Source: Candidatus Gastranaerophilales bacterium (GTDB taxonomy: Bacteria > Cyanobacteriota > Vampirovibrionia > Gastranaerophilales > Gastranaerophilaceae). From it: a DNA stretch of 64,000 nucleotides. The position numbers and the translations under genes are program-made. Below are positions 4,284 through 44,392 of this stretch, in pieces (positions within the stretch are counted from its first letter, which is position 1; each line of letters begins with the position of its first letter). The DNA lies in the NCBI GenBank assembly GCA_947630535.1, contig CANRHZ010000001.1:1-64000 (forward strand). The letters are read 5' to 3'. The notes beneath the pieces were generated by a model, which made no database searches, was not told the DNA's origin, and was given only the letters and a program-made list of their open reading frames with translations.

Positions 4284-4295
4284 ATAAGGACAAAA

Positions 4296-4405: not shown

Positions 4406-4499
4406 ATTTCTCCTTTGCAGGCTTGATGGGTTAAAAACCACCAAAAATCAACAAAACCCACTTCGCTGAATTAAATCCTAATTATATGAATTAACATAT

Positions 4500-4521
4500 A
4501 AAGTGGACACAGAATGGACAC
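4500..4521 (+). promoter_or_regulatory. candidate integrase arm-type site, left end
   Basis: AAAGTGGACACAGAATGGACA occurs here, about 95 bp inside attL, and again at 44205-44225 just inside attR, plus in both old remnants (4104-4125, 4312-4333). Each copy contains GGACA twice. Position and repetition on both sides of the core fit Int arm sites. Function is inferred. Confidence 0.5.
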
Positions 4522-4920: not shown

Positions 4921-4921
4921 T

Positions 4922-5218: not shown

Positions 5219-5226
5219 GGATTAAA

Positions 5227-7484: not shown

Positions 7485-7500
7485 AGGAGTTAATTTTTAA

Positions 7501-8466: not shown

Positions 8467-8505
8467 GAATAATATAAATTTAACATACGAATATATTAAA
8501 TGTGT

Positions 8506-8531
8506 AGGTGGGGTTTAATTCCCCACCTTTT
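8506..8531 (+). terminator. rho-independent terminator after the capsid gene
   Basis: AGGTGGGG (8506-8513), a 7-nt loop TTTAATT, CCCCACCT (8521-8528), then TTTT. It lies 40 bp after the capsid stop. T7 has its T-phi class terminator in exactly this place, where partial read-through lowers tail-gene expression. The following gene must start downstream of it. Confidence 0.88.
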
Positions 8532-8541
8532 GGAAGGACAA

Positions 8542-27253: not shown

Positions 27254-28198
27254 ATGCGAAATTATGATGTGGCACACAACTTTTATTATGGCATTATGAG
27301 GTCATTTTCAAGAAGTTCCATGACTGTAAGTTATTCAGACAATAAATACTGGAGCTATGGGACAGTTATTGCAAAAATCACTAAAAACATAGAGGGTAAA
27401 ACAGTATGTATAATATCCGATAACACATTCTCAAATACAACATCAAAACATATAGGGGAATTATTGAAGGCTTGCCCTTTTCAAGTGATACGTCTACCTC
27501 AAAAAATGTGGCAAGGGGATTTTAATGCTTATGATGTTGTAAAGCGTTGTATTGACAATATAATGTATTACGCTAATTCTAAACTCACACAACAAGCAAA
27601 TAGAGAAAATTTTAAAAACAATTATAGGATGCTTAAAAGCACTTTAGACCTTGAAGGGTTTGAAAGTGAAGTTAAAAAAATTACAAATACACTGAAAGAA
27701 TATCAAGAATTATTTAATATATTAAATGACCCCGATAAAATTATTGAATTAAAAGCTAAACAAAGGGCACTTGAAAAGCAAAAACAAGAAAACCTTAAAA
27801 AAGAATTAAATACTCTTTTAAAAAAATATTCATATATGGATTTAATCAGATTTACTTATGCTGGTATAAGGTTGAATGATTACTCTATTGAAGATTATAA
27901 TACACAAAAAGAGTTAAAATCAAAGTTAGAAAAATATTTTAATCCTAAAAATGAATTATCTTTTGTATGGTTTGATGATGATTATTGCTATACATCTTAC
28001 CTTATTAGAGTTGATAGGAAAGAAGCCGAAACATTTTTAAAACTGTGGGGTAAAGGCAAATTAAAACGTGGAATGAAAATATCTAGGTATATAGTTTTAG
28101 ATATTCAAAAAGATTTTATAAGAATAAGCTGCCACAAAATCCCAACAAAAAACTTGCAAGCTTTATTAAATGAAATAACCATAAGTAAAGCAGCTTAA
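27254..28198 (+). CDS. conserved-looking phage protein of unknown function, 314 aa
   Basis: RBS AAAGGGGGC. Residues 20-70 (SYGTVIAKI, VCIISDNTFSNTTSKHIGELL) resemble a start shared by several phage proteins of unknown function that I know only by pattern. A coiled region spans about 120-200, rich in K and E. The last 100 residues alternate strands and helices (SFVWFDDDYCYTSYLIRV). No catalytic motif recognised. It may act early in infection or in the lysogen. Confidence 0.6.
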   Translation: MRNYDVAHNFYYGIMRSFSRSSMTVSYSDNKYWSYGTVIAKITKNIEGKTVCIISDNTFSNTTSKHIGELLKACPFQVIRLPQKMWQGDFNAYDVVKRCIDNIMYYANSKLTQQANRENFKNNYRMLKSTLDLEGFESEVKKITNTLKEYQELFNILNDPDKIIELKAKQRALEKQKQENLKKELNTLLKKYSYMDLIRFTYAGIRLNDYSIEDYNTQKELKSKLEKYFNPKNELSFVWFDDDYCYTSYLIRVDRKEAETFLKLWGKGKLKRGMKISRYIVLDIQKDFIRISCHKIPTKNLQALLNEITISKAA

Positions 28199-28242
28199 AA
28201 GTATAAAACTACTGTTCAATAAAAGTAAAGGAGAAATTAAAG

Positions 28243-28476
28243 ATGCTTAAATGTCATAACGTCGAATATAAAGGAAACATTTTAATGTGTGCAAGCACGG
28301 GAAAAGAATGTAATCTGAAAATATGTCACGGCTGCAAAATATTAGATACTGTAAATTATTACACCGCAGCCCAAGCAATAAATAAGCTTTTGGACAATTG
28401 CGAAAAATGCTACAAATATTATCAATGTGATAGGGTTTTAGAGCTTCAAGATAAATTGAAAGAATATGAACCGTGA
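28243..28476 (+). CDS. small cysteine-rich phage protein
   Basis: 77 aa with nine cysteines, several in CxxC-like pairs (C29/C32 region KICHGC; NCEKCYKYYQC), suggesting one or two zinc or metal sites. Strong RBS (AAAGGAG). Size and cysteine density fit a small regulatory or host-takeover protein. Family unknown. Confidence 0.6.
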   Translation: MLKCHNVEYKGNILMCASTGKECNLKICHGCKILDTVNYYTAAQAINKLLDNCEKCYKYYQCDRVLELQDKLKEYEP

Positions 28477-28556
28477 TAAGAAATATAAAAATAAGACAAT
28501 TAAAAGTAAAAAATAAACATTATAAGCCAGTAGGTTTAATATAAGGAGCATTTAAA

Positions 28557-29165
28557 ATGTATATAAAGCAAATTCCGCTTGCAATTTATTCGTTTAATGA
28601 TGTTATTAAAGATGCAAGTTTAAAAGATAAAGTTTTAGATTTACACCGTTACATAAACGTTGATGACGATTTTTGGTATAAAGATATTCTAAAACAATGG
28701 GATACAAGATTAAATCAATATGGATTTATTAATACCAAAATATATTTTACAGGCTTTTATTCTCAAGGGGATGGGGCTTGCTTTGAATGTAATGAGGTAG
28801 ACTTTAAAAAGCTATTAACAAGCCTTGAAAAGACAAGCTTTAAAATACCGCATAAGAAACTTATTTTACGCTTTTTAGAAAATTATTGTACAGGTGAAGT
28901 TGCCCGCAATCACTATGGGAATTTATATTGTCATAGTAATTCAAGAAATTTTATTTTAACTTTTAGAACTTATAAAACTCCACTTAAAGCAAGCAAATTG
29001 CTTGATGCAATTGCATCTGGAATTGATAAAATGCGCAAGTCCTTATCAGATGAAATTTACAAGGAATTAGAGGATACCTATATATACTTTACATCTGATG
29101 AAGCAATTCTTGAAACATTAAAAATAAATGAGTATGAATTTTTAGAGGATGGCAAAATAGCATAA
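28557..29165 (+). CDS. phage protein with FYSQGDGACFE motif
   Basis: 202 aa. Carries FTGFYSQGDGACFE (about 65-78), which I recognise as a signature shared by small proteins of many unrelated phages. Family members usually have D-x-W-x-x-D before it, seen here as DDDFWYKDILKQW. Function of the family is not known to me. RBS AAGGAGC. In the accessory block, all rightward. Confidence 0.65.
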   Translation: MYIKQIPLAIYSFNDVIKDASLKDKVLDLHRYINVDDDFWYKDILKQWDTRLNQYGFINTKIYFTGFYSQGDGACFECNEVDFKKLLTSLEKTSFKIPHKKLILRFLENYCTGEVARNHYGNLYCHSNSRNFILTFRTYKTPLKASKLLDAIASGIDKMRKSLSDEIYKELEDTYIYFTSDEAILETLKINEYEFLEDGKIA

Positions 29166-29217
29166 TATACATATAAAGAAAAGAAAATAAATATAATTAA
29201 TAAAAAAGGAGCAATAA

Positions 29218-29802
29218 ATGAATATAGATGAACAAATAAAAGAACTTGAAAAACAATTACTTATGGCACTTGAAATATCAAAAGAATATGTTGAATTGAA
29301 AAAAATTGAGCAATTCAATTCTATAAAAAAGGTTGAATGTGGAGAAAAGCATTCAGGTGATTATTTTAAAACAGAGGAACAAACTGAACAGGTTAGATGG
29401 AGAGCTGATAAATACGGAAAATATTATTATCTTAATGATGTGGGGCGTGTTTTTTCCGCTATTGATGAGTACAACAATGTAGATAATTTTCGTTATTATT
29501 CGGGTAACTATTTTAAAACTGAAAATAAAACCGAAAGATATGAACTGAACCTATTAACCTATCAACAATTAAAAGATATTGCTTTAAGATTGAATAACGG
29601 GCAAGAAATTAATTGGAATAATAGAAATCAAAATAAATATTATTTTTATTTTGATTTTCGTGGAAACCGTTTTGTAACTGATATCTTTATAACAGATAAA
29701 GATTTACTAACAGTATATTGCCTTGATAAAAACTTCCTCAATGTGGCTTTAGATGAAATTGGGGAAACCTCATTAAAACAGTTGCTAGTAGAAGGGATAT
29801 AA
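29218..29802 (+). CDS. phage protein with internal GDYFKT repeats
   Basis: 194 aa. A coiled-coil start (residues 1-40) is followed by WRADKYGKYYYLNDVGRVF and two related elements, GDYFKTEEQTE (about 48) and GNYFKTENKTE (about 100). Proteins with W-K-P-x-x-G-x-x-Y-Y-x-I plus N-Y-F-K-T-E occur in phages and prophages of Gram-positive and gut bacteria. Function unknown. RBS AAAGGAGC. Only 1 bp from the recombinase gene. Confidence 0.62.
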   Translation: MNIDEQIKELEKQLLMALEISKEYVELKKIEQFNSIKKVECGEKHSGDYFKTEEQTEQVRWRADKYGKYYYLNDVGRVFSAIDEYNNVDNFRYYSGNYFKTENKTERYELNLLTYQQLKDIALRLNNGQEINWNNRNQNKYYFYFDFRGNRFVTDIFITDKDLLTVYCLDKNFLNVALDEIGETSLKQLLVEGI

Positions 29803-29803
29803 A

Positions 29804-30613
29804 ATGCAAAAATCAATGATAAAAGAAATAAAATTAATTGAACTTATTGAACAATTTAATAAAAAACGATTGTATCTATATAAAGCCTTTAATACCTTAT
29901 GTACACATCAAAAAGAACTATTAACTTTTTTTGGCGGGTCTTTAGATATTAAAAAACTAGATTATAATAAAATAACCGATTTTATTTTATTTTTAAAACA
30001 CAAAGGTAATTCACCCGCTACAATAAATGCTAAACTTTGTATGCTATCCACTATATTAAACTTTGCGATTGATACTAATAGTTTATTAAATAAACCTAAA
30101 ATTCCTTTTTTAAAACTTCAAAGGAATGAGCGCACGGCTATTTCAAGAAATGAACTTGCACGTATAATGTATTATTGTAGACAAAATAACCTTAAAGAGT
30201 TATTGCAAGCGGTTAGGCTTTGTATTTATACGGGTGCAAGGATTAACAATGTGCTTAATATAAAAAAGGAAGATTTTAAAAATAATTATATTTATTTTAA
30301 GATAAATAAAAGCAAAAGACCTTATGCCGTCCCATTGAATAAAAAAATGCAACGTCTGCAAAAAATATTTATGCCTTTCACTCTTAACTATCAGGCTATA
30401 TACTATCAATTTAAACAGATGAAAAAAATCTTAAATTTAAGAAATGAGATAACAATTCATAGTTTAAGACATACGTTTGCAACCAACCTTTTAAATAAAG
30501 ACGTTGCCATTACTACAATTCAGGCTTTATTAAACCATAAAAACCTATCTACTACGCAGTTATACACACATCTTGAAAATAAAACCCTTGAAAACGCTGT
30601 TGCCCTTTTATAG
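29804..30613 (+). CDS. second tyrosine recombinase, mid-genome
   Basis: 269 aa with a SAM-like core-binding half (1-105) and a complete catalytic half: Arg146 (TGAR), Lys169, His219-x-x-Arg222 (HSLRH), His245, Tyr254. It is shorter and quite unlike the end-located integrase (43170-44186), so it is not a duplicate. Possible roles are dimer or concatemer resolution, or inversion or insertion at a nearby site such as the repeats at 30720-30767. It is in an operon with the preceding gene and lies downstream of accessory genes, so it could also be a remnant of a nested element. Confidence 0.85.
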   Translation: MQKSMIKEIKLIELIEQFNKKRLYLYKAFNTLCTHQKELLTFFGGSLDIKKLDYNKITDFILFLKHKGNSPATINAKLCMLSTILNFAIDTNSLLNKPKIPFLKLQRNERTAISRNELARIMYYCRQNNLKELLQAVRLCIYTGARINNVLNIKKEDFKNNYIYFKINKSKRPYAVPLNKKMQRLQKIFMPFTLNYQAIYYQFKQMKKILNLRNEITIHSLRHTFATNLLNKDVAITTIQALLNHKNLSTTQLYTHLENKTLENAVALL

Positions 30614-30777: not shown

Positions 30778-31071
30778 TTAATAGTTCAAATTATAGTAAC
30801 TTGTAGGCGGTGGTGTAATCCTTTGTGGTTTATTCTTTTTTATATAATAATTATATTTTTGGCCTTGGGTGCCATATCTGTCAGTGTTAGGATTATAGTT
30901 ACCGCTTGTTGAATAATTGTTTTCAGTGGATGTATCACGTTCAGTCCTTACATAAGGATTAACGAATGTACCGTTTTTTCGATAGTATCCACGCACGTAT
31001 TCATCAGCTTGTGCATATCCCATCACTATAATAATTAATAAAAGAATACTTATTGTAACCGTTTTATACAT
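30778..31071 (-). CDS. secreted small protein in the repressor operon
   Basis: 97 aa. A clear signal peptide (positively charged start, hydrophobic core at about 7-18, cleavage after AQA at 22) is followed by VRGYYRKNGTFVNPYVRTERD and an N/Y/T-rich tail. Small exported proteins with V-R-G-Y-Y-R-K-x-G-T occur in many bacterial genomes. It overlaps the repressor stop by 8 nt, so it is transcribed with the repressor and should be made in the lysogen. Lysogenic-conversion candidate. Could alternatively be inner-membrane anchored. Confidence 0.75.
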   Translation of the reverse strand: MYKTVTISILLLIIIVMGYAQADEYVRGYYRKNGTFVNPYVRTERDTSTENNYSTSGNYNPNTDRYGTQGQKYNYYIKKNKPQRITPPPTSYYNLNY

Positions 31072-31771
31072 GTTCCCTGCTCCCGTTCCAAATAACTTTA
31101 CCTATAATCTCAGCATTATCAAAAGGTGTAAGCTCTATAGGCGAATATTTTGGATTGTTTGAAAGTAAAGTAATATTACCTGCTATGTCTTTTTTAATCT
31201 TTTTAACAAATAATTTATCATTTTTTCTAATTACGAAAATTCTACCATTAATGGGTTCTTTTTGGCTATTATCAACCAATAATAAATCTTCATCTTTTAT
31301 ATCATCCGCCCTGTTTTCACCTGAATCCATTGAATCACCGTCAGCTAGAATCAATGATAAATTAACAGGATTAGCATTTAATATGTTTTTTAAATATCTT
31401 ATATCAAAAAATAATACATCTTTTTCTTCATAGTCAGGAAGTATATTCCCATTGCCGGCAGCTGCCTTGACATTGTAAAAAGGTACAGGGAAAGTGTAGG
31501 ATGATTTAAACAGTTTAATATAATCTTCGATATTCCTGCCTTTTGGCTCACCTTTTCCGGTCAATAACCACTCTCCATTGATATCGTAATTAACTGTTAA
31601 GATTTTAAGGATATTTTTATTTAATGTATCGGTTTTGCCTGTTTCAATGTTAGAAATAACAATTTTTGTAGTATTAAGCTTTTCGGCAAATTCTTTTTGG
31701 GTGTATATTCCTAAAATGTTTATTCTTACATATTTAATGCGTTCAGCCAATGTAGTTTCAGACATTTTCAC
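31064..31771 (-). CDS. CI-like repressor with S24 autocleavage domain
   Basis: 235 aa. The N-terminus has a helix-turn-helix (TQKEFAEKLNTTKIVISNIE, about 24-43), and residues 100-235 carry a LexA/CI-type peptidase. Putative cleavage site is Ala105-Gly106, Ser147 in GDSM is the nucleophile, and Lys190 in LFVKKI is the general base. It should bind the divergent operator region at 31772-31957 and be inactivated by RecA-dependent self-cleavage, linking induction to DNA damage. It is the first gene of the leftward operon. Confidence 0.9.
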   Translation of the reverse strand: MKMSETTLAERIKYVRINILGIYTQKEFAEKLNTTKIVISNIETGKTDTLNKNILKILTVNYDINGEWLLTGKGEPKGRNIEDYIKLFKSSYTFPVPFYNVKAAAGNGNILPDYEEKDVLFFDIRYLKNILNANPVNLSLILADGDSMDSGENRADDIKDEDLLLVDNSQKEPINGRIFVIRKNDKLFVKKIKKDIAGNITLLSNNPKYSPIELTPFDNAEIIGKVIWNGSREHV

Positions 31772-31957
31772 CTCTTATTCTTAATATTCCTTAACAATTA
31801 TAGTATTTTATGTTACAAAATAAAATAATGTGGAATAATAATAATATAAAATCTTATATATTAATATGTAATATATAAAACCTTAACTTATTATAACACA
31901 CAAAACAAAAAACGAAAGAAATTGTAACATTTTGTAATAAAAATAAAGGAGTTTTTT
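31772..31957. promoter_or_regulatory. divergent lysogeny control region with candidate operators
   Basis: 186 bp between the repressor (leftward) and the first rightward gene. TTACAAAAT occurs at 31813-31821 and its inverse ATTTTGTAA at 31929-31937, beside TGTTACA (31811) and TGTAACA (31923). These could be operator half-sites near each promoter. A+T-rich blocks between them resemble -10 elements. No exact promoter could be fixed by eye. Confidence 0.5.
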
Positions 31958-32170
31958 ATGACAAAGCATTATTGTAGTACTTGTGGCAGATGCCAAAACA
32001 GTTTATGTAGTTTTTTTCAAAGGCATATTGAACCAGATTACAACAGATGTGCAATGCACACGGATTTTAATAAGTCCTATGCCGTTTATAAATCACCTTC
32101 TAAAGAAGAACTGGAAGCACTAATAGAAGCTAATGAAGATAATAAAGAAGTTATAACCAACAAAAAATAA
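31958..32170 (+). CDS. small cysteine-rich protein in Cro position
   Basis: 70 aa. Five cysteines and two histidines in the first 35 residues (YCSTCGRCQNSLCSFF, then CAMH) suggest a zinc-binding knuckle. The acidic tail is EELEALIEANEDN. RBS AAAGGAG. First rightward gene opposite the repressor, hence immediate-early after induction. Not a recognisable Cro helix-turn-helix; role unknown. Confidence 0.65.
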   Translation: MTKHYCSTCGRCQNSLCSFFQRHIEPDYNRCAMHTDFNKSYAVYKSPSKEELEALIEANEDNKEVITNKK

Positions 32171-32189
32171 ATCAATGAAGGGATTAAAA

Positions 32190-32351
32190 ATGCGTGTATC
32201 AGTACAATTAAATACTATTCTAGAATTTGAATACATAAATGATATAAATGAAGCTTATAGCTTAATTGTTGAAGATATGTCACCGGTTGATATTTTAATG
32301 ATGGCTGATAATCTCGGAAGCCCAGTTAACATAGACGTTGATGCTATATAA
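32190..32351 (+). CDS. small phage early protein, 53 aa
   Basis: ATG at 32190 follows GAAGGG at about 7 nt. The frame gives MRVSVQLNTILEFEYIND and ends PVNIDVDAI at TAA. It shows normal codon use of the phage and no overlap with neighbours, filling most of the gap before the RNA polymerase gene. Unknown function. Confidence 0.6.
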   Translation: MRVSVQLNTILEFEYINDINEAYSLIVEDMSPVDILMMADNLGSPVNIDVDAI

Positions 32352-32415
32352 AGGCGATTGATTATGAATTTAACCTTAAAGTATTTAAAAACATAATAGG
32401 AATAGAAGTAAATTT

Positions 32416-34854
32416 ATGCTTAGTCAACAAATTGAACTTGAAAAAGAAATGACACAAGCATCAATTGATAAATACAGAAAAGCGGTAATAGAAGCCAAAC
32501 AAAACGGAACATTTTCAACTACAAAAAGTGCTACGGCCTTTTTAAAAACTATTTTAAATGCCTTTACAAAAGCAATTATCAATTACCTTGATAATTACTC
32601 CAAAGGAAATGCAGTACGTTCGACAAAAGCAGCTGAAATAATATCACACTTGCAAGACCCTGAAAATGTGGCTTTTATTGCAAGTAAAATAATTTTAGAT
32701 TGCGTTTATGAAAATGACCCTAAACAGGCCTTCTGCTGCCGTATAGGAAACGCTTTATCTGATGAATTTAAAATGATGTCTTGTAAAAAGAAAAATATCG
32801 CATACTACAAAGCCATTCAAAAAGACTTAAACAAGCGTAACTGTAAGCGTGGTAGACGAAAAAACATTATAACGGGCGTATTTAAAAAAAGAATTAAATT
32901 ACAGTTCGATAAATGGGACGAAACAGACAAAGCGCAAGCAGGACAGGTCTTATTACAACTTTTCATAGAATCAACAGGATGCGTTAAATTTATAGATGTG
33001 TATAAAAAAGGTAAGCACTATAAATATCTGCAACCAACAAGGGAACTTGATGAATGGTTAAAAAAGACAGATTCATTCTTTGAAATTATGCAGCCTTTTT
33101 ATCTGCCTATGATATGTAAACCAAAACCGTGGACGGGTATTTTTGAAGGTGGTTACATATCCCCTTATTTAAGAAAAAATAAAGTAATAAAGAATAACGA
33201 TAAAAGTTATCTCGAAAAATTAAGTAAGACGGATTTAAAAAAGGTATATACCGCAATAAACATTTTACAGGAAACGCCTTGGAAAATAAATAAACAAGTG
33301 TTAGATGCGGTTAATATATTATGGAGTATGGGAGAGCCTGTAGCATCACTTCCTTCAAGGGACGATACACCGATTCAAAAATTTCCCTTTGAAGGACGTG
33401 ATAAACAGGAATATACCAAAGACGAAATTGAAAGAATTAAACAATGGAAACTTGAAACATACCTTACGCATAAAAGCAATGTACAAAAAAGGTCTTTAAG
33501 GATTTTAACAACAAAGCTTTTATATATAGCAAACAGATTTAAAGATTATGCAGAAATTTATTTCCCGCATCAAATGGATTTTAGGGGACGTTTATACCCT
33601 ATACCACCCCTTTTAAACCCACAGGGAGATGATTTAGCTAAAGGATTATTATTATTCGCAGAAGGAAAAAAGTTAAATGCTCAAAATGTTAAATGGCTTG
33701 AAATCCACGGGGCAAATGTTTATGGAATTGATAAAGTTTCTTTTCAAGACCGTATTAAATGGGTGCATAATCACATTCAAGACATTAAAGAATGTGCTAA
33801 CGCTCCTATTGAATACAGGTTTTGGACTGATGCCGATAAACCTTTCCAATTCCTTGCTTTTTGTATGGAATATGCAGCTTTTCTTAGTAATCCTGATGAT
33901 TTTATAACCCACCTTCCTGTAAGGCTTGATGGTACCTGTAACGGTTTACAACATTATTCGGCACTATTCAGAGATGAAACAGGTGGACGTGCAGTTAATC
34001 TTGTAGATTCAGGCAAACCAAATGATATATACGCAACTATAGCGGACAGGTTAACGGAAAAACTTAAAAGTATGACGGATATTAACGGGTATCGTTGGTT
34101 ACAATTAGGTATTACAAGGAAACTAACAAAAAGGCCTGTAATGGTGCTTCCTTATGGGGGTACATTATTGAGTTGCAGAAGTTACATTCAAGAATATCTG
34201 ACTGAAAATTATTCACTTGAATTTTTGCAAAACCATTTTAAGCTTGATAAAGACCCTGAAAACAACTGTTTTAAAGCTTCTAATTGGCTTGCAAAATATT
34301 TATGGGAATCAATTAAAGAAACAGTTAAATCAGCGGTGCTTGGAATGGATTATTTTAAAGCACTGGCACGCCTTGTAAATAAAGTTCAGCCGTTCATAGA
34401 ATGGATAACACCAATGGGATTACTTGTTAGGCAAGGTTATAAAAACAGAAAAAAGACAGAAATAAGTACAGAACTGTTTGGAAAGATAATTAAAACCACT
34501 ATAACTAAACAAACTGATGATGTTGCAAAAGTTAAACAAATTAATGGTATTTGCCCTAATTTTATTCATAGTTTAGATGCTGCCGTTTTAATGCTTTATT
34601 TAATAAAGGCCCATAAAGAAGGAATTAAAAGCTTTACTTCGGTTCATGACTGTTATGGAACACTAGCTCCCGATTCAGAACTTTCCTCAAAAATTTTAAG
34701 AGAGGCGTTTGTGGAAATTTATAAACGTCCTATTTTAAATGATTTTGAATATGATTTAATCGGTGAATTGAACGTGGAAAATGTACCCGAATGCCCTGAA
34801 ATAGGCATTTTGGATATAAATGAAGTGTTAAAAAGTACTTATTTTTTTAATTAG
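32416..34854 (+). CDS. single-subunit DNA-directed RNA polymerase, T7 type
   Basis: 812 aa (T7 gp1 is 883), the hallmark of the T7 group. Core elements in order: DFRGRLYP (about 388-395), DGTCNGLQH with metal-binding Asp505, TKRPVMVLPYG with Lys572, Tyr580 and Gly581, and HSLDAAV followed by SVHDCYG with the second metal Asp745. All catalytic residues are conserved. The N-terminal 200 residues diverge from T7, so its promoters will probably differ. The gene lies third downstream of the repressor-controlled early promoter, making its expression the likely lysis-lysogeny switch point. Confidence 0.96.
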   Translation: MLSQQIELEKEMTQASIDKYRKAVIEAKQNGTFSTTKSATAFLKTILNAFTKAIINYLDNYSKGNAVRSTKAAEIISHLQDPENVAFIASKIILDCVYENDPKQAFCCRIGNALSDEFKMMSCKKKNIAYYKAIQKDLNKRNCKRGRRKNIITGVFKKRIKLQFDKWDETDKAQAGQVLLQLFIESTGCVKFIDVYKKGKHYKYLQPTRELDEWLKKTDSFFEIMQPFYLPMICKPKPWTGIFEGGYISPYLRKNKVIKNNDKSYLEKLSKTDLKKVYTAINILQETPWKINKQVLDAVNILWSMGEPVASLPSRDDTPIQKFPFEGRDKQEYTKDEIERIKQWKLETYLTHKSNVQKRSLRILTTKLLYIANRFKDYAEIYFPHQMDFRGRLYPIPPLLNPQGDDLAKGLLLFAEGKKLNAQNVKWLEIHGANVYGIDKVSFQDRIKWVHNHIQDIKECANAPIEYRFWTDADKPFQFLAFCMEYAAFLSNPDDFITHLPVRLDGTCNGLQHYSALFRDETGGRAVNLVDSGKPNDIYATIADRLTEKLKSMTDINGYRWLQLGITRKLTKRPVMVLPYGGTLLSCRSYIQEYLTENYSLEFLQNHFKLDKDPENNCFKASNWLAKYLWESIKETVKSAVLGMDYFKALARLVNKVQPFIEWITPMGLLVRQGYKNRKKTEISTELFGKIIKTTITKQTDDVAKVKQINGICPNFIHSLDAAVLMLYLIKAHKEGIKSFTSVHDCYGTLAPDSELSSKILREAFVEIYKRPILNDFEYDLIGELNVENVPECPEIGILDINEVLKSTYFFN

Positions 34855-35654: not shown

Positions 35655-36287
35655 ATGGCAGATAGCAGAATTAAGGAAAACTATGTATCAGGTAAAGGTG
35701 TATTAACAGGGTTTATTGCAATTTTTAAACCTTCTACAAAATTTAATGATAAAGGAGCTTATTCTTTAAATATATTACTTGATGAAAAAGAAGGTAAAGC
35801 ATTAACGGCTAAAGTTAAAGAAATTGCTAAAGAACAGTTTAAAGCTTATGGTAAAGGTAAAAAAATTTCAGAGATTACCTGTATTAAACCTTTCGCAACC
35901 ATTAATGAAGAAGGGGAAGAAGTCCCAGACCCTGAAAACAGATACATTTTAAAAACAAGTGCAAAAGCTTGGATTGAAGATGGTATACCATCTAATAAAA
36001 TTTTAGTTGTAGATGCTTCAAAACAACCTATTAAAAATCTTAACATAGGACAAGGAACAGTTGCTAAAGTATTTGTAAGTTTGGAAGGCTATACAACCCC
36101 AAAAGAAACCAATGTTACAGTTGTATTAAAAGCGGTGCAGATTATTAAATTTGTAGAAAAAACAGGTGTAACCATTGATATGACAGGCTTTGAAGTTGAA
36201 GATGGATTTATAATGGATAATGATGAAGAAGTATCCAATGATGAAGTAAATGCTGCGGAAGCATCTGATGAAGAAGAAGATTTCTAA
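35655..36287 (+). CDS. single-stranded DNA-binding protein, T7 gp2.5 position
   Basis: 210 aa OB-fold-type protein that coats ssDNA and organises the replisome. Core strands include GKGVLTGFIAIFKPST and FNDKGAYSLNILLDE. The tail is strongly acidic and ends with Phe (EEEDF), the feature by which gp2.5 binds DNA polymerase and helicase. It precedes endonuclease I exactly as in T7. Confidence 0.88.
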   Translation: MADSRIKENYVSGKGVLTGFIAIFKPSTKFNDKGAYSLNILLDEKEGKALTAKVKEIAKEQFKAYGKGKKISEITCIKPFATINEEGEEVPDPENRYILKTSAKAWIEDGIPSNKILVVDASKQPIKNLNIGQGTVAKVFVSLEGYTTPKETNVTVVLKAVQIIKFVEKTGVTIDMTGFEVEDGFIMDNDEEVSNDEVNAAEASDEEEDF

Positions 36288-36711
36288 AGAGCAGGTAGGC
36301 TTAAAATACGGATTCAGGTCAGGGCTTGAAGCGGAAATTGCTAATCAGTTCATAAAAGAAGGAATAGACCCTTTATATGAAAAATACAAACTTCCATACA
36401 GGGTTGAAAAAGATTGCAAATATACCCCTGATTTTCCGGTAAGTCAGAGAATAATTATTGAAACAAAAGGCAGATTTTTAACATCCGATAGGATGAAAAT
36501 GCTTCTTATAAAGAAACAATACCCCAATTTAGATATTAGGTTTATCTTTACAAATTCCAAAGCAAAGATAAGTAAAAAATCAAAAACCACTTATGCTGCT
36601 TGGTGTATACATAATGGATTTAAGTATGCGGATAAAACCGTTCCTGTTGATTGGATAAAGGAAATTAAAGATGAAATACAAAATAATAAAACAAATAACA
36701 AAGCCCTCTAA
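36268..36711 (+). CDS. endonuclease I, Holliday-junction resolvase, T7 gp3-like
   Basis: About 147 aa, the size of T7 gp3 (149). Motifs line up: FRSGLE (catalytic Glu), YTPDF (Asp) and IETKGR (Glu, Lys), spaced as in the T7 enzyme, followed by SDRMKMLLIKKQYPNLDIRFIF and the C-terminal VPVDWIKEI. It cuts branched concatemers and host DNA. I prefer the ATG at 36268 (GGAAG upstream); an in-frame ATG at 36250 would add six residues. Overlaps the SSB 3' end. Confidence 0.93.
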   Translation: MKKKISKEQVGLKYGFRSGLEAEIANQFIKEGIDPLYEKYKLPYRVEKDCKYTPDFPVSQRIIIETKGRFLTSDRMKMLLIKKQYPNLDIRFIFTNSKAKISKKSKTTYAAWCIHNGFKYADKTVPVDWIKEIKDEIQNNKTNNKAL

Positions 36712-36973
36712 CTGTAAAACAACTGATGAACTTGATGCTTGTCAATATTACCATATAAAAAGGGCTAATTTTTCATATATAGTTTCATGCGCTGATTATT
36801 GTGCGGTAAATATTCTGCCTACAAGTCTTTTACATCAATATACCGTACAAATGCCACTAAAAGAATTTATTGAAGCCCGTATTGAAGATGGATGTGAGGT
36901 ATATGGTTTCAATGATGTTAAGGAGCTATTAGAATTTACTTTAAAGGAAGATAGCGGTGCGACAAGCTCATAA
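36671..36973 (+). CDS. phage protein, 100 aa
   Basis: Sits between endonuclease I and primase-helicase, overlapping both (by 41 and 17 nt). In T7 this position holds the gp3.5 amidase/RNA polymerase inhibitor. This protein has no amidase zinc ligands, although it has several cysteines (CADYC, CEVYG). Unknown role. Confidence 0.55.
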   Translation: MKYKIIKQITKPSNCKTTDELDACQYYHIKRANFSYIVSCADYCAVNILPTSLLHQYTVQMPLKEFIEARIEDGCEVYGFNDVKELLEFTLKEDSGATSS

Positions 36974-38567
36974 ACCTTGTCCGGATTGTGGAAGTTCTGA
37001 TGCACTTTTAATTAATGAAGATGGCTCTACCAAGTGCTTTTCTTGTGGAAAATTTACACCTACTGATGGTGAAAACTTAAGTACGGCAAATGACACTTAT
37101 GATATAGACTTTCTAAAAGGAAGGGCAATGTCCCTTCCCTCTAGGAAAATTTTACAAGATACCTGTAAAAGATATAAATATATGACATCCGCTTTTAATG
37201 GTCACCCTTGTGAAATTGCTACTTATAGAGATTTAAAAGGCAATCCTGTATTTCAAAAAGTACGTTTCACAGATGAAAAAAGGTTTATGATAATTGGTAA
37301 ATATAAGCCGGTTTTATATGGTATGCACCTTTTTTCAGGACAAACAAAGAAACTTATTATAACGGAAGGCGAAATAGACTGTTTATCCGTAAGCCAAGTT
37401 GTTAAGGGGTACCCTGTTGTGTCTGTTCCGTTAGGAGCGGGAAACGCTAAAGCTGCCATAAAAGAGAATTTACAATGGATAGAATCCTTTGATGAAGTTG
37501 TTTTATGCTTTGATATGGATGAAGCCGGCGAAAAAGCTATAAAAGAATGCGCACCTTTAATCAGTGTCGGTAAGTGTAAAATAATGAAGCTCCCGCTAAA
37601 AGACCCTAACGAGATGTTAAAAGCCGGACAGGAAGCTGATTTATATAAAGCCACTTGGAATGGCTTAACATACAGACCTGATGGCATTGTTTCTAAAGAA
37701 GAACTTTGGAGTGAAGTTCAAAAACCAGTTGAATATGGACTAAGCTATCCTTGGAAAGGTCTTACCAAACTCACATACGGTATCAGAAAAAGCGAAATTG
37801 TTGTATTTGGGGCCGGAACAGGTATGGGGAAAACAGAGTTCTTTAAAGAAATAGAACACCATTTAATAAATACACATAAGAAGAAAGTAGGTATAATTCA
37901 CCTTGAAGAAATAGCAAGAGATACGGCCTTAGGCCTTATGGCAAAACATTGCGGAATTAAGTTTCATGTACCGGATGCAAAATATTCAAAGCAAGTTTTT
38001 AAGAAGGCCTTTGATGAAGTTATAGGAAGTGATTTACCTGTAATTTACAACGGTTATGGTACCACAGACTTTGATGTTATTGAAAACATTATACGTTATA
38101 TGGCAAAAGGATGTGATTGTGAATATATCTTTTTCGACCATATAACGGCAATGGCTGATGGGGTATCATCAACATCTGATGTAAACCAAAGAATGCGTAA
38201 TGTTGTATCAAAACTAGCCTCTTTAACAAGGGAATTAAACATAGGACTGTTTATTATTTCACACTTAAGGAAAACGGAAGGAAAATTACCACATGAAGAA
38301 GGTGGCAGGGTTCATCTTGATGATTTATATGGAGCAGCAGCTTTAAAACAATGGATTTCTTTTGCCTTTGGCTTAGAAAGAAACCAACAATCAGAAGATG
38401 AAGATATAAGGCATACTACCACACTTCGTTGTCTTAAAGATAGATATACAGGCCTTTCAACCGGAAAAACCTTATCTATTAAATATGAAAAAGATACAGG
38501 GCTGCTAAAAGAAGTATCTGAAACTTATGAAGAAAAAACGGAACAAATTGATGAGGAGCCATTTTAA
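36957..38567 (+). CDS. primase-helicase, T7 gp4-like
   Basis: 536 aa (T7 gp4 is 566). Residues 8-30 are a zinc ribbon (Cys8, 11, 27, 30). TOPRIM primase elements are ITEGEID (Glu137) and CFDMDEAG (Asp186, Asp188). The RecA-type helicase has Walker A GAGTGMGKT (285-293), HLEE (Glu317), Walker B FFDH (Asp394), ISH (His436) and the arginine-finger-like GLERNQQ (472-478). The tail is acidic. GTG start 36957 with AAGGAAG upstream, overlapping the previous gene. Unwinds DNA and makes primers. Confidence 0.96.
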   Translation: MRQAHKPCPDCGSSDALLINEDGSTKCFSCGKFTPTDGENLSTANDTYDIDFLKGRAMSLPSRKILQDTCKRYKYMTSAFNGHPCEIATYRDLKGNPVFQKVRFTDEKRFMIIGKYKPVLYGMHLFSGQTKKLIITEGEIDCLSVSQVVKGYPVVSVPLGAGNAKAAIKENLQWIESFDEVVLCFDMDEAGEKAIKECAPLISVGKCKIMKLPLKDPNEMLKAGQEADLYKATWNGLTYRPDGIVSKEELWSEVQKPVEYGLSYPWKGLTKLTYGIRKSEIVVFGAGTGMGKTEFFKEIEHHLINTHKKKVGIIHLEEIARDTALGLMAKHCGIKFHVPDAKYSKQVFKKAFDEVIGSDLPVIYNGYGTTDFDVIENIIRYMAKGCDCEYIFFDHITAMADGVSSTSDVNQRMRNVVSKLASLTRELNIGLFIISHLRKTEGKLPHEEGGRVHLDDLYGAAALKQWISFAFGLERNQQSEDEDIRHTTTLRCLKDRYTGLSTGKTLSIKYEKDTGLLKEVSETYEEKTEQIDEEPF

Positions 38568-38569
38568 GT

Positions 38570-38830
38570 ATGACAAAAAGTATATTTGATAAACCCCGTA
38601 AAATCCTTGTAGCCAATCTTATTAGTAATAAAAACAGTATTAAAAAATATGATGTTGAATACACAGGCGAATGGGAAGATTGGGAGTTAATAACGGCAAT
38701 TGATAATGGGGTTTATGACAATCCCGATAAAGAATCTTTAAAAATCTGTCACTATGGCGGAACAGTTATAAACCTTTCATCAGAAGTACCTGATACCAAA
38801 AAAGCGTTGGTTAGCGTGTATATAGATTAA
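38570..38830 (+). CDS. small phage protein, 86 aa
   Basis: 2 bp after the primase-helicase stop. Alternating strands (ILVANLISNKNSIKKYDVEYTGEWEDWEL) and ALVSVYID at the end; small soluble beta-rich protein. Unrecognised. Context: replication operon. Confidence 0.5.
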   Translation: MTKSIFDKPRKILVANLISNKNSIKKYDVEYTGEWEDWELITAIDNGVYDNPDKESLKICHYGGTVINLSSEVPDTKKALVSVYID

Positions 38831-38862
38831 ACGTATTAATAAAATTTTAAAGAATAGAAACT

Positions 38863-40809
38863 ATGGCTTTAATATTTGATATTGAAACCAATGGCCTATT
38901 AAATACTTTAGATATAATACATTCTCTTGTTATTTATGATACTGAAAAAGACTGTTATTATGACTGTACGGATAACGACCCGAATAAGCTTACAATTAAA
39001 GAAGGCCTTGAAATTTTATCAGGGGCCCCATTAATTGTAGGACATAATATAATAGGGTTTGACCTTCCTGCTATTCAGAAATTATACCCCACTTTTAAAG
39101 TAAATGATAAAATTTTTGATACATTAATAGCAGCAAAATTAATATACCCTGAAATAGAACTTATAGACTATGCTCTTTACAGGAAAAAGGTGTTGCCAAA
39201 AGAATTAATTGGTAAATATTCACTTGAATCTTTTGGATATCGACTGAAAGAGCTAAAAGGCACTTATTGCAAGGAAGAAAATACTTGGGAAAAATGGAAG
39301 CCTGAAATGCAAGTCTATTGCAAACAGGATGTTAAAGTTACTACAAAACTGTATTATAAACTTTTAGATGCTAATGTAAAACTTGATGTTTTAGAATTGG
39401 AACAAAAATTTGCAAAAATAATATCAAGGCAGGAACAAAGAGGTGTATTATTCGATAAAGACAGGGCCGTTGAATTAGTAAGTGAGCTGCTTGAAGAACA
39501 GAAGAAAATTTATTTAAAATTACAAGAAGTTTTTAAACCAAAAATAATTGAAGAAACTTTTATACCTAAAGTTAATAACTCAAAAAAGGGATATATAAAA
39601 GGCACTCCTTTCATAAAACAAATAGAGGTTCCTTTTAATCCTAATTCAAATCAAATGGTGGCTTCACGTTTGATTGAAAAATACAACTGGAAACCTTTAG
39701 AATTTACCGAAACAGGTCTACCAAAAGTAAGTGAAACAATATTATCAGAACTTCCATATAAAGAGGTTCCGCTTTTACTTCAATATATAAAAATAGCTAA
39801 AGTTATTGGATATATTGCAGAAGGTAAAAACGCTTGGTTGAAGAAAGTGGAAAATGACGGAGCTATAAGAGGGAAGGTGGACACACTCGGTACAGTGACA
39901 GGAAGGTGTTCCCATTATAGCCCTAACCTAGCTCAAACACCTGCGGTTGAAAAGGATGGTGACAACAATATTTTATTCGGGATTGATGGCGGGTATGGCT
40001 ATGAATGCAGGGCATTATTTAAAGCAAGAGAAGGATTTAAACTTGTAGGATGTGATGCTTCGGGTTTAGAATTAAGAGATTTAGCTCATTACATTAATTC
40101 TCCTTCTTATACCAAAGAAATCTTATCAGGGGACATTCATACAAAAAACCAACATCTAGCAGGTTTAAGTACAAGGGCTAAAGCAAAGAAATTTATCTAT
40201 GCTTTTAATTATGGTGCAGGTGATGAAAAGATAGGATATATGGCAGGAGTAAGCGAAAAAGAAGCCTTGCAATATAAAATAGATAAAAGACGTGAAGCCG
40301 TTATAAAACGTATTAAAAAAGCCGGTAAAGTTCCTACCAATGAGCTTGTGAATCATATTTTAAAAGGGATGGATACAAAGGCGAAGTTCTTTAAAGGCCT
40401 TCCCGAATTAGCTAATTTAATGGAAAAAGTTAAAGATAAGGCTAAAACACGTGGGTATTTATATGGAATTGACAAACGAAAATTAAAAGTAAGGGAAGTA
40501 TATAAAAGTTTAAATGTACTTTTACAATCAGCAGGTGCAACCGTAATGAAAAAAGCATTAATTATTTTATATGATGAATGCGTACAAAAAGGTTGGATAA
40601 ATGATTCTTTTTATATAAATCCTTATGATAAAGTATATTTTGTTTTAAACATCCATGATGAATTTCAAGCGGAAGTTAAGCCCGAAATAGTTGAAGAATA
40701 TATGATAATGGCCGTAAAGGCCATTGAAAAAGCTGGCGATTATTTTAGTTTTAAATGCCCATTAACAGGTGAAGCTAAAGAAGGCTTTAATTGGGCTGAA
40801 ACCCATTAG
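38863..40809 (+). CDS. family A DNA polymerase with 3'-5' exonuclease, T7 gp5-like
   Basis: 648 aa (T7 gp5 is 704). Exonuclease: DIE at 6-8, HNIIGFD (Asp67), YCKQDV (Asp156). Polymerase: motif A CDASGLELRDLAH (Asp398), motif B RAKAKKFIYAFNYGAG with Tyr446 at the position of T7 Tyr526, and motif C NIHDEF (Asp599, Glu600). All active-site residues are intact. A thioredoxin-binding insertion is not obvious by eye. Replicates phage DNA with the SSB and helicase. Confidence 0.96.
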   Translation: MALIFDIETNGLLNTLDIIHSLVIYDTEKDCYYDCTDNDPNKLTIKEGLEILSGAPLIVGHNIIGFDLPAIQKLYPTFKVNDKIFDTLIAAKLIYPEIELIDYALYRKKVLPKELIGKYSLESFGYRLKELKGTYCKEENTWEKWKPEMQVYCKQDVKVTTKLYYKLLDANVKLDVLELEQKFAKIISRQEQRGVLFDKDRAVELVSELLEEQKKIYLKLQEVFKPKIIEETFIPKVNNSKKGYIKGTPFIKQIEVPFNPNSNQMVASRLIEKYNWKPLEFTETGLPKVSETILSELPYKEVPLLLQYIKIAKVIGYIAEGKNAWLKKVENDGAIRGKVDTLGTVTGRCSHYSPNLAQTPAVEKDGDNNILFGIDGGYGYECRALFKAREGFKLVGCDASGLELRDLAHYINSPSYTKEILSGDIHTKNQHLAGLSTRAKAKKFIYAFNYGAGDEKIGYMAGVSEKEALQYKIDKRREAVIKRIKKAGKVPTNELVNHILKGMDTKAKFFKGLPELANLMEKVKDKAKTRGYLYGIDKRKLKVREVYKSLNVLLQSAGATVMKKALIILYDECVQKGWINDSFYINPYDKVYFVLNIHDEFQAEVKPEIVEEYMIMAVKAIEKAGDYFSFKCPLTGEAKEGFNWAETH

Positions 40810-40822
40810 AAAAGAGGTTTGT

Positions 40823-41173
40823 ATTATAAATTTCAAAAAATGCAGTTGTTGTAAAAAATGGCTGCCACTGGAATATTTTGCAGAAAAAACTCACCGTTGC
40901 CGTATCTGCAACAGAGATAATGATTGGAAAAGGCGTTATGGATTAGAAGCGGATACTTTTTTTGCTATGTTAAAAGACCAAGACAATAAATGCCCTATTT
41001 GTAAAAAAGAATTTACCAGTATGCCACATGTTGACCATAACCACGATACAGGTGAAATAAGAGGATTGCTTTGTGCAACCTGTAACAGAAACTTAGGTAT
41101 ATATGAAAAGGAACGTATTATAGACGGAATGATACTTCGTTATGAAGAATATTTGAAAAGGTTTAAAAAATGA
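40823..41173 (+). CDS. recombination endonuclease VII (His-Me nuclease)
   Basis: About 116 aa from the proposed start. Zinc cysteine pairs CSCC and CRIC/CPIC with the catalytic core HVDHNHDTGEIRGLLC place it in the T4 endonuclease VII family, which resolves branched DNA. No ATG, GTG or TTG in this frame has a ribosome binding site; AGAGG at 40813-40817 points to ATT at 40823. The only other in-frame candidate is a GTG at 40769, inside the polymerase gene, with no RBS. It gives the phage a second resolvase beside endonuclease I. Confidence 0.85.
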   Translation: MINFKKCSCCKKWLPLEYFAEKTHRCRICNRDNDWKRRYGLEADTFFAMLKDQDNKCPICKKEFTSMPHVDHNHDTGEIRGLLCATCNRNLGIYEKERIIDGMILRYEEYLKRFKK

Positions 41174-41958
41174 CACGAACAGTTTTAATTGATGGGGACA
41201 TATTGGTATATAAGGCTGCATTGGTTTCGCAAGAAGAATTTGAAGAAAATATAAGCAATGATGATGATGAATGGCTCTTGCAGATAATTAAATTTGCTCA
41301 TAAAAACAAAGCTATAAAATATATAGAAGAAACAATAGCCAGAATTTGTAAACAAACAAAAAGTCAAAATTGTGCAATAGCATTATCAGATAAAGACTTA
41401 AATTTTAGAAAGCAGATAAATCCTGATTATAAAGGTAACAGGAAAAAGCCTAAACCCTTATTACATGGATTTTTAAGGGAATATTTTAAAAAAGCAGGGT
41501 ATAAAGTTTATGAAAAGCCTTCACTTGAAGGTGATGATGTAATAGGTATTTTAGCAACGTCCGATAAAATAATTAAAGGGGATAAAGTTATATGGTCTTT
41601 TGACAAGGATTTCAAAACTATCCCTTGTAAATTTAGAAAAGAAAATCCTGATGGCTCCCACGAAAGTAAAATTATTTCGGAAGAAGAAGCCGATTGGAAT
41701 TTTATGTATCAGACATTAATAGGTGATTCGACTGATGGCTATAAAGGATGCAAAGGCATAGGTGATAAAACCGCAAGAAAGCTTTTAGGTGAAGTTGGGG
41801 AAAAATCTTTGATGCAGATGTGGGATGTAGTTAAAGAGCAATATGTTAAAGCAGGTTTAAGTGTTGAAGATGCACTTTTAAATGCCAGAATGGCCCGTAT
41901 TTTAAGAGTATCCGATTATGATTTTAAAAATAAAAAGGTTAAATTATGGCAGATATAA
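41170..41958 (+). CDS. 5'-3' exonuclease, T7 gp6-like
   Basis: 262 aa (T7 gp6 is 300). FEN/PIN-like acid cluster: DGD at 8-10, LEGDDVIG (about 118-125), SFDKDFK (about 142), GDSTDG (about 180), then the helix-hairpin CKGIGDKTARKLLG. It removes primers and processes host DNA. It overlaps endonuclease VII by 4 nt and the next gene by 13 nt. Confidence 0.92.
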   Translation: MTRTVLIDGDILVYKAALVSQEEFEENISNDDDEWLLQIIKFAHKNKAIKYIEETIARICKQTKSQNCAIALSDKDLNFRKQINPDYKGNRKKPKPLLHGFLREYFKKAGYKVYEKPSLEGDDVIGILATSDKIIKGDKVIWSFDKDFKTIPCKFRKENPDGSHESKIISEEEADWNFMYQTLIGDSTDGYKGCKGIGDKTARKLLGEVGEKSLMQMWDVVKEQYVKAGLSVEDALLNARMARILRVSDYDFKNKKVKLWQI

Positions 41959-43169: not shown

Positions 43170-44186
43170 ATGACTATCTCAAAAAGGAATGGAAAATATT
43201 ACTGTCGTTTTCAGCTGAATGGAGAAAGACACCATAAATTATGTTCCGGTGCAGCATCCATAAAAGAAGCTGAAAAAATTGAAAATGCTTTCAAGTATAA
43301 GCTTCAACAACAGCAGAATGGGGTAATACCGAAAGAGGAGAAAAATTTACCATTATACAAATTAAAACAGATATATTTAGCTTATTCAGAAACAAACAAT
43401 AGGAATAGAAATTTTGAACATAACAAATATTCGGTAAATATTATAATAGGTTATTTTGGTGAGAAAAGGATAGTTCAGAGTATTTTACCAAAGCATGTGG
43501 AAGCATTCAAGGAATGGTTGAGGGTTAAAAGAGGTCTTAAGAATGCCAGTATAAATAGATATTTGGAGATATTGAGCAAAATGTTTAACCTTGGAATAGA
43601 TAATGGCAGTTTATCAGTAAATCCTGTATCGAAGGTAAAGAAGTTGCAAGAGGATAATCACAAGGTAAGGTTTTTGACCGCAGAAGAAGAAGCAAGATTA
43701 TATAAGGCATTGCCTGAATTTCTCAAGCCAATAGTGACTACAGCTTTACACACAGGAATGAGAAAAGGAGAGATTTTGAATCTTAAATGGAACAACATTG
43801 ATTTTGAATATGGGTTTATAGAGTTGTTAGAAACAAAATCGGGCAAAGCAAGAAAGATTCCGATATCGGAGAAATTGATGGAAATTTTCAATAAATTATA
43901 TATGGATGCGAGAAGTGAATATGTGTTTATAAATCCTGAAACGGGTTTACCTTATGTAGATATAAAGAAATCGTTCAATAAAGCAAAAGAAGTGGCGGGA
44001 ATAAAAGATTTCAGGTTTCACGATTTAAGGCATACGGTGGCAACTCGGTTGGTTGAAAAAGGTATAGATTTATTAGTAGTAATGGATATATTGGGGCACA
44101 GTAAGATAGAAACCACAATGAGATATGCACATCCGATACCAAAAAGAAAAAGTGATGCAATTAGTGTTCTTAATTCATACAATTAG
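43170..44186 (+). CDS. int: phage integrase (tyrosine recombinase)
   Basis: 338 aa. Residues 1-55 form an AP2-like arm-binding domain (RNGKYYCRFQLNGERHHK), about 60-160 the core-binding domain, and about 165-338 the catalytic domain with Arg198, Lys223, His284-x-x-Arg287, His310 and Tyr319, all present. The stop is 70 bp from the attR core. Its C-terminal codons are duplicated in the old remnant at 4067. It catalyses integration into and, with Xis, excision from the tRNA gene. Confidence 0.95.
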   Translation: MTISKRNGKYYCRFQLNGERHHKLCSGAASIKEAEKIENAFKYKLQQQQNGVIPKEEKNLPLYKLKQIYLAYSETNNRNRNFEHNKYSVNIIIGYFGEKRIVQSILPKHVEAFKEWLRVKRGLKNASINRYLEILSKMFNLGIDNGSLSVNPVSKVKKLQEDNHKVRFLTAEEEARLYKALPEFLKPIVTTALHTGMRKGEILNLKWNNIDFEYGFIELLETKSGKARKIPISEKLMEIFNKLYMDARSEYVFINPETGLPYVDIKKSFNKAKEVAGIKDFRFHDLRHTVATRLVEKGIDLLVVMDILGHSKIETTMRYAHPIPKRKSDAISVLNSYN

Positions 44187-44203
44187 AATTTAATTCAAAA
44201 AAA

Positions 44204-44225
44204 GAAAGTGGACACAGAATGGACA
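44204..44225 (+). promoter_or_regulatory. candidate integrase arm-type site, right end
   Basis: Copy of the GTGGACACAGAATGGACA element, 18 bp after the int stop and 31 bp from the attR core. The same element lies inside attL at 4500-4521. Presence on both sides suggests Int arm binding. Confidence 0.5.
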
Positions 44226-44256
44226 TGAATAAAAGTTTAAAACGCCTAAAAAAAAA

Positions 44257-44298
44257 TAGCAAGGGAGAGATTCGAACTCTCGACCTCACGGGTATGAG
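44257..44298 (+). other. attR core
   Basis: 42 bases identical to 4364-4405. They supply the 3' half of the tRNA gene, so integration leaves a complete tRNA at this end. Confidence 0.88.
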
Positions 44299-44330
44299 CC
44301 GTGCGCTCTCACCAACTGAGCTACCTTGCC
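44257..44330 (-). tRNA. tRNA-Met (CAU), prophage integration target
   Basis: A 74-nt cloverleaf reads on the minus strand: acceptor GGCAAGG with CCTTGCT, D arm AGCTCAGTTGGTGAGAGC, anticodon stem CACGG/CCGTG around loop CTCATAC with anticodon CAT, and T loop GTTCGAATC. CCA is not encoded. It lacks the three G-C pairs of initiator tRNA, so it is elongator Met or lysidine-modified Ile2. The 3' half up to the anticodon derives from the phage. Confidence 0.92.
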
Positions 44331-44392
44331 ATAATTTATTAAATTTCAAGCCTTATTATTTCAAAAACAAGAAAATTTATCAAGTATAAATT

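Follow-up and report, generated by a model that had tools for sequence, protein, structure and literature searches.

How might a phage built like T7, the textbook obligately lytic phage, be held in lysogeny? The window (the whole 64,000-nucleotide stretch analyzed here) contains a T7-like prophage, and its position at a tRNA-Met gene of a bacterial chromosome was confirmed: an integrase and att sites are present at the tRNA gene, and the left and right flanks are identical at 111 of 113 and 109 of 112 positions (blastn). The prophage can be classed as T7-like (Autographiviridae-type) from its predicted gene content, that is, a single-subunit RNA polymerase together with T7-type replication and virion genes. 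We consider it probable that this prophage is temperate and that a CI/LexA-type S24 repressor of the polymerase operon maintains its lysogeny.

The first-pass annotation had described an S24 repressor facing a short early operon with the polymerase as its third gene, and this arrangement was borne out by the ORFs together with Pfam and PHROGs matches, which place a minus-strand repressor divergent from orf70, orf53, and the polymerase, in that order (Table 1). The repressor reading frame opens at a GTG at 31771, although the ATG at 31765, preceded by AAGAGGTG, is the likelier start. Repressors of the CI/LexA-type S24 class carry a Ser-Lys dyad plus an Ala-Gly (or Cys-Gly) cleavage site. By alignment and residue numbering, the window protein keeps the dyad intact (Ser145 and Lys188) along with A103-G104 as the putative cleavage site; together with its HTH and S24 domains, these residues place it in that class. 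A RecA gene was found in the host. As for the genes that precede the polymerase, orf70 is conserved at 8 of 10 clade loci (alignment), has no match in Pfam or PHROGs, and yields a predicted structure of low confidence (mean pLDDT 68, pTM 0.33), and orf53 has no Pfam match.

Table 1. Features of the prophage and its attachment sites, in window coordinates.
Feature	Position	Strand	Description	Evidence
Left att region	4067-4410		Two close matches to the right-hand att repeat (about 4067-4179 and 4296-4405), both including part of tRNA-Met	blastn
T7-type virion module	5227-26507	plus	Head-tail connector, scaffold, major head protein, tail proteins, internal virion proteins, terminase large subunit	PHROGs
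Left operon	27254-30613	plus	orf314 to tyrosine recombinase	Pfam, PHROGs, relatives
orf314	27254-28198	plus	Left operon	
Two unknown ORFs	28557-29165, 29218-29802	plus	Left operon	
Tyrosine recombinase	29804-30613	plus	Left operon	Pfam (PF00589, E 4.9e-23)
HTH-S24 (CI/LexA-type) repressor	31064-31765	minus	233 aa from ATG 31765	Pfam (S24 domain, PF00717, E 1.3e-19; N-terminal HTH, PF01381 [HTH_3], E 5e-06), PHROGs (phrog_4, E 1.7e-41), alignment, residue numbers
Divergent control region	31766-31957		192 bp, 17% GC	
Weak operator candidate	31917-31935		Two one-mismatch copies of ACAAATTGT, 10 bp apart	
orf70	31958-32170	plus	Small, Cys-rich, possibly zinc-binding; first gene of polymerase operon	Alignment
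orf53	32190-32351	plus		ORF reading
T7-type single-subunit RNA polymerase	32416-34854	plus	812 aa	Pfam (PF00940, E 1.5e-112; PF14700, E 7.6e-24), PHROGs (phrog_414, E 4.6e-249)
T7-type replication module	35655-41958	plus	ssDNA-binding protein, endonuclease I, primase/helicase, DNA polymerase, endonuclease VII, exonuclease	PHROGs
Tyrosine integrase	43170-44186	plus	Adjoins right att site	phrog_1, E 2.3e-78
Right att region	44167-44300		Extends into 3' end of tRNA-Met	
tRNA-Met gene	44256-44331	minus		

The pairing of repressor and polymerase was followed through 383 genomes of the family. The closest relative of the window repressor among them has 49% identity (a partial one has 50%). The top seven repressor matches, at 40-100% identity and from six genomes, are without exception at the polymerase loci of this clade, the next match being at 35%; a viral scan returned four relatives of the repressor, distant or partial. 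Of 13 matches to phrog_414, four weak ones (G040, G206, G207, and G212; E 9e-5 to 7e-4) were left out of the clade count, as was the partial match in G254 (27.5% identity, E 3e-29); G418 was likewise left out. At all nine assessable clade loci (eight genomes and the viral contig L045), a repressor homologue lies divergently upstream of the polymerase. A tenth contig, L002, belongs to the clade by its polymerase; it begins about 1.7 kb upstream of that gene, with no repressor there, and is therefore not assessable. Shared by nine of nine assessable relatives, the layout is not a product of chance.

In a lysogen, a repressor dimer would occupy the 192-bp gap and block rightward transcription of orf70, orf53, and the RNA polymerase, and without phage RNA polymerase the genes that depend on it, which we infer to include the late genes, would stay silent. 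DNA damage would then activate RecA, leading to self-cleavage of the repressor at A103-G104 and release of the operon. Such SOS cleavage cannot be general in the clade: the catalytic serine is missing from the repressors of G196 and G387, and in three further relatives (G397, G145, and G260) AAAG is replaced by AAAN.

Inverted sites had also been proposed at both edges of the divergent region. The TTACAAAAT pair is present in the gap, at 31813-31821 (+) and 31929-31937 (-), but it does not rise above chance: the motif occurs five times in the window versus 4.2 expected, with at least five copies in 40 of 100 shuffles, and the inverted pair itself gave a p of about 0.95 against 60 dinucleotide shuffles. 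Showing no excess by either measure, the pair is therefore not evidence of operators, and TTACAAAAT was rejected as one because statistical support was lacking. Across the whole 192-bp gap, no inverted pair exceeded the dinucleotide shuffles: the best scored 14.9, below the null median (15.9; 60 shuffles, p about 0.72). The ACAAATTGT copies listed in Table 1 match a core found in the relatives G219, G397, and G401, and, as a motif picked post hoc, are suggestive only as a candidate operator. No sigma70-like promoter stood out in the window gap either, where the best rightward score was 4.58 versus a shuffled median of 5.75 and ranked 1470 in the prophage, the weight matrices being approximate. 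Comparison of the early gap with the left operon and the rest of the window gave no echo, the best match being reached by 23 of 60 shuffles.

In two relatives, G219 and L045, the gap carries a sigma70 promoter close to consensus, whose spacer contains operator-like repeats, and a matching promoter and operator stand at the head of a second operon ending in a tyrosine recombinase. No sigma70-like promoter in 48 kb of G219 outscores the early one (rank 1; approximate matrices); the match between this promoter and that of the left operon scored 31.5, whereas 40 shuffles gave at most 21.1, and genome-wide the match was reached by 0 of 60 shuffles. The corresponding match in L045, whose operator sequence differs from that of G219, scored 27.2 versus a maximum of 19.0 in 40 shuffles and was marginal genome-wide (reached by 4 of 100 shuffles), and the echo in G401 was not significant genome-wide (20 of 100 shuffles). 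These duplicated operator-promoters suggest that, in at least these two relatives, the repressor controls two operons and also holds the promoter of the recombinase operon. Of the original proposal, control of lysogeny upstream of the polymerase thus keeps strong comparative support, from the nine divergent repressors and the two relatives with duplicated operator-promoters, whereas its single host-type promoter was not recovered in the window and gives way to two apparent promoters in the relatives.

It is unlikely, in our view, that the repressor blocks the phage polymerase's own promoter, in an autocatalytic loop as proposed for the phage LUZ100, or some unusual promoter rather than a standard host one. 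In LUZ100, a phage promoter has indeed been mapped upstream of the polymerase, and the gaps of the window, G397, G260, and G145 contain no good sigma70 match (approximate matrices), the last three sharing an element, GGGAATAGTATWWATGTAAG, that can be loosely aligned to the window. This element, however, occurs once per genome in those three, unlike a set of phage promoters; therefore, it does not form a promoter family and was ruled out as a phage promoter. Moreover, neither a k-mer scan of the window prophage nor a search for motifs in the gaps of five loci yielded a phage-polymerase promoter motif, the scans returning nothing beyond att repeats, ribosome-binding sites, and A/T-rich noise, and the five clade loci other than these four have sigma70-like promoters in the gap, ranking 1 to 8 within their loci. 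It seems very unlikely that the repressor's main role is in immunity or in guarding the recombinase operon, or that the prophage is decaying, with the polymerase silent for another reason such as a promoter inactive in this host. In the window, the reading frames of the polymerase and of the other phage genes examined are open, and repressor and polymerase remain neighbours across the clade, even though no promoter or operator is recognisable in the window gap, the recombinase operon of relatives has a second operator-promoter at its head, and in G387 the polymerase carries a stop codon and the repressor has lost its serine.

The placement of an S24 repressor opposite the polymerase operon has a counterpart in the cultured Desulfovibrio phage ProddE (MZ666938), where a minus-strand CI-type S24 repressor (4867-5637) is divergent from a T7-like RNA polymerase (5953-8547) that is 34% identical to that of the window. 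The window shares this type of layout, with a divergent S24 repressor adjoining the polymerase transcription unit and with an integrase and att sites. Unlike in the window, the rightward unit of ProddE begins with the polymerase gene, the integrase is located to the left of the repressor, and an annotated antirepressor is present. The ProddE sigma70-like promoter ranks 2 in 15.5 kb (approximate matrices) and adjoins a 17-bp palindrome above chance; a host-type promoter overlapped by an operator is seen ahead of the polymerase unit in G219, L045, and ProddE but not in the window. The 15.5 kb examined in ProddE contain a single copy of the palindrome, so no second operator-promoter was seen there.

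For other temperate T7-like phages, a MarR-like protein has been proposed to repress the polymerase as a lysogeny switch (PMC10134795). Pasto, HTVC200P, and LUZ100 resemble the window in being T7-like with an integrase and a regulator, and, as in our model, the regulator of LUZ100 and its relatives is proposed to silence the phage polymerase during lysogeny. However, these regulators are MarR-like or small HTH proteins rather than S24 proteins (no S24 match in any of the three records) and lie on the same strand, ahead of the integrase and polymerase; a switch of this Pasto/LUZ100 type was rejected for the window, whose regulator is HTH-S24 and divergent. The CI/c repressors of lambdoid and Mu-like phages (D3, RcapMu, and RcWaterboi) are, like the window protein, of the HTH-S24 type, with 29-33% identity over most of the protein. 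Lambdoid and Mu-like repressors guard early genes transcribed by the host polymerase, whereas in the window the guarded gene encodes a single-subunit RNA polymerase and the first rightward gene was not recognised as Cro-like (Pfam, PHROGs). Since a CI-type repressor already faces the polymerase in ProddE and the MarR-type proposal is in print, the window system is of a known kind, with a possible two-promoter twist observed in the relatives only. Its value is that of a clean comparative case and not of a new principle, because the general idea has been published for other T7-like phages; a conserved clade with a lambda/LexA-type repressor over the polymerase operon would mean that little is needed to turn the T7 body plan temperate.

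A further proposal for the clade, which we put forward tentatively and with some doubt, is that a single SOS-cleavable repressor controls a matched pair of sigma70 operator-promoters, one for the polymerase operon and one for a separate operon ending in a tyrosine recombinase, so that induction would start excision and the polymerase together; relatives without the S24 serine would need a different inducing signal. If true, this two-promoter lysogeny regulon would differ both from ProddE, where a single site was seen, and from T7-like phages of the MarR type. The clade supplies testable repressor-operator pairs and, in the relatives, what may be a simple two-promoter regulon.

In the window, an HTH and S24 repressor gene is divergent from orf70, orf53 and a T7-type RNA polymerase of 812 residues (PF00940, E 1.5e-112; phrog_414, E 4.6e-249), which bears out the S24 repressor facing a polymerase operon described in the first-pass annotation. 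The likelier repressor start is the ATG at 31765, preceded by AAGAGGTG. These genes sit within a T7-like prophage in which virion genes are followed by the left operon, the minus-strand repressor, the polymerase operon with the replication genes and, finally, an integrase. Sequence from the right flank entering the tRNA-Met gene is found in two copies at the opposite, left prophage end (111/113 and 109/112 identical), which fits att sites.

Features of the T7-like prophage in the window
Feature	Position	Remark
T7-like prophage	~4.1 kb to ~44.3 kb	
att-like copies	4067-4521	prophage left end
Virion genes		leftmost in prophage; connector, scaffold, major head, tail, internal virion proteins, terminase
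Tyrosine recombinase	29804-30613	ends small left operon
HTH + S24 repressor ORF	31064-31771	minus strand
ACAAATTGT-like pair	31917-31935	one mismatch per site
orf70	31958-32170	plus strand; small, Cys-rich
orf53	32190-32351	plus strand
T7-type RNA polymerase	32416-34854	plus strand
Integrase	43170-44186	beside tRNA-Met
tRNA-Met	44256-44331	

This arrangement is conserved within the polymerase clade. Among 383 genomes of the order, phrog_414 matched 13, of which eight, including that of the window, were kept as clear clade members and five weak or partial matches were dropped. A divergent repressor homologue lies upstream of the polymerase in all eight and in the viral contig L045, that is, in 9/9 assessable loci, a tenth (L002) being left out as a truncated contig. 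The seven other repressors that were aligned are only 26-48% identical to that of the window; the arrangement therefore persists while the sequences diverge. A search of 383 family genomes with the window repressor gave as its best seven hits (six genomes, 40-100% identical) exactly the repressors at these polymerase loci, and the next match was 35% identical. Orf70 precedes the polymerase in 8/10 clade loci, and C6, C9, C17, R22, N29, C31 and H34 are invariant across its eight sequences; its structure model is of low confidence. Two loci show further peculiarities: in G401, the polymerase operon is preceded by a tandem pair of S24-type repressor genes (L042:5493-6191 and 6280-6960), one with a Cys-Gly site and the other with Ala-Gly, and in G196 (L036, L038) the virion module is inverted relative to the polymerase module and non-phage-like genes adjoin the repressor, reflecting either a rearrangement or an assembly problem.

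Beyond the clade, the layout is not general among T7-like phages. Among the 19 records of phages or viruses that encode a related polymerase (14 from IMG/VR, several of them fragmentary, and five named), only two contain an S24 protein, namely the record of L045 and the cultured Desulfovibrio phage ProddE; the other two of the 21 records searched are bacterial genomes, with S24 hits outside the fetched polymerase stretches. Outside the family, seven genomes of the class encode such polymerases, and none has an S24 gene near the polymerase, the nearest on the same contig being ~360 kb away.

Evidence for regulatory sites in the window is poor. The inverted TTACAAAAT sites, initially noted at each edge of the gap between repressor and orf70, are not supported: this sequence has five copies in the 64 kb, where 4.2 are expected, and no inverted pair in this gap is better than in shuffles. 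Nor is the postulated single host-type promoter supported there: the best rightward sigma70-like score (4.58) falls below the shuffled median (5.75) and ranks 1470th within the prophage. The ACAAATTGT-like pair is only suggestive as a candidate operator, since the motif was picked after inspecting relatives. A sigma70-like gap promoter is likewise lacking in G397, G260 and G145, making four of nine clade loci with the window; the gaps of these three relatives, between repressor and first rightward gene, have in common a single-copy element, GGGAATAGTATWWATGTAAG, possibly an unusual promoter.

The evidence is considerably better in other relatives, where the rightward gap promoter is the strongest sigma70-like one of the locus (G219, 48 kb; G401, 13.8 kb; G387, 20 kb) or ranks high (L045, 4th of 18.5 kb; G196, 8th of 45 kb; and, outside the clade, ProddE, 2nd of 15.5 kb). 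In G219 it reads TTGACA-17-TATAAT with AAAACAAATTGTT inside the spacer, and a second promoter, TTGACG-17-TATAAT with AAAACAATTTGTT, heads the left operon; the two regions match at 31.5, whereas 40 shuffles gave at most 21.1, and genome-wide the score is reached by 0/60 shuffles. L045 likewise has two operator-promoters with a different operator (ACAAAAATGTGATA and ACAAATATGTGATA); here the match is 27.2, with 40 shuffles giving at most 19.0, and genome-wide it is reached by 4/100. In both, the last gene of the second operon is a tyrosine recombinase of the same family as that ending the left operon of the window (for L045, from the ORF list). In G401 the only echo, ahead of orf314, is weak, and there is none in the window or in G196, so that the five loci with both regions examined comprise two clear, one weak and two negative cases. 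Together with the 9/9 conservation, the echoed operator-promoters leave standing the general interpretation that lysogeny is controlled upstream of the polymerase operon, and a two-promoter variant in relatives is plausible.

On the best reading, the repressor would shut off the polymerase operon, joined in some relatives by the recombinase operon, and RecA-driven cleavage would release both. In the window repressor, A103-G104 aligns with the cleavage site, and S145 and K188 with the Ser-Lys dyad; their intactness supports an inducible repressor. The host genome (98.5% complete) encodes RecA, and its only S24 protein besides the phage repressor, on contig 31 (L093) adjoining a Y-family polymerase gene, looks by eye like UmuD, hence no LexA was seen among its S24 matches. 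The dyad serine is lost in G387 and in G196 (where Pfam gave no S24 match at E 0.01), and the cleavage site reads AAAN in G397, G145 and G260, which counts against a uniform SOS story. The G387 prophage may be decaying, as its polymerase is interrupted by a stop codon.

A CI-like repressor facing a T7-like polymerase is already known from ProddE (MZ666938), where a 17-bp palindrome, present once in the 15.5 kb examined, adjoins the sigma70-like promoter. The available text of the LUZ100 paper already hypothesizes that lysogeny is maintained by repressing polymerase expression (PMC10134795), and the MarR proposal is repeated in the accessible part of PMC11321410. Unlike in the window, integrase and polymerase are preceded in Pasto, HTVC200P and LUZ100 by a MarR-like or HTH regulator. 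Caulobacter phage S2B has an integrase before the polymerase on one strand, and the stretch seen carries no annotated repressor; Pasto is described as the family's first active temperate phage, with S2B a further one (PMC9145550, in part). No S24-polymerase switch appears in the accessible portions of PMC8008677 or PMC10142737, or is recognized in the literature covered on temperate T7-like or Autographiviridae phages, T7-like prophages and repressors, mostly titles and abstract openings. That coverage, which excludes subscription papers, yielded no paper on ProddE; Boeckman et al. 2022, cited in the available LUZ100 text (PMC10134795), is elsewhere cited in part-available text for uninduced release in D. 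desulfuricans (PMC12724379), so ProddE may be described there.

To judge from the map of the integrated prophage, in which the polymerase operon has the virion genes to its left and the att site stands between these and the replication genes, read-through from this operon could reach the virion genes only after excision. The prophage has two tyrosine recombinases, one ending the left operon and one by the right att site. At its left end, the att-like copies stand in tandem, two near-complete and one partial at ~200 bp spacing, and are perhaps scars of successive integrations.
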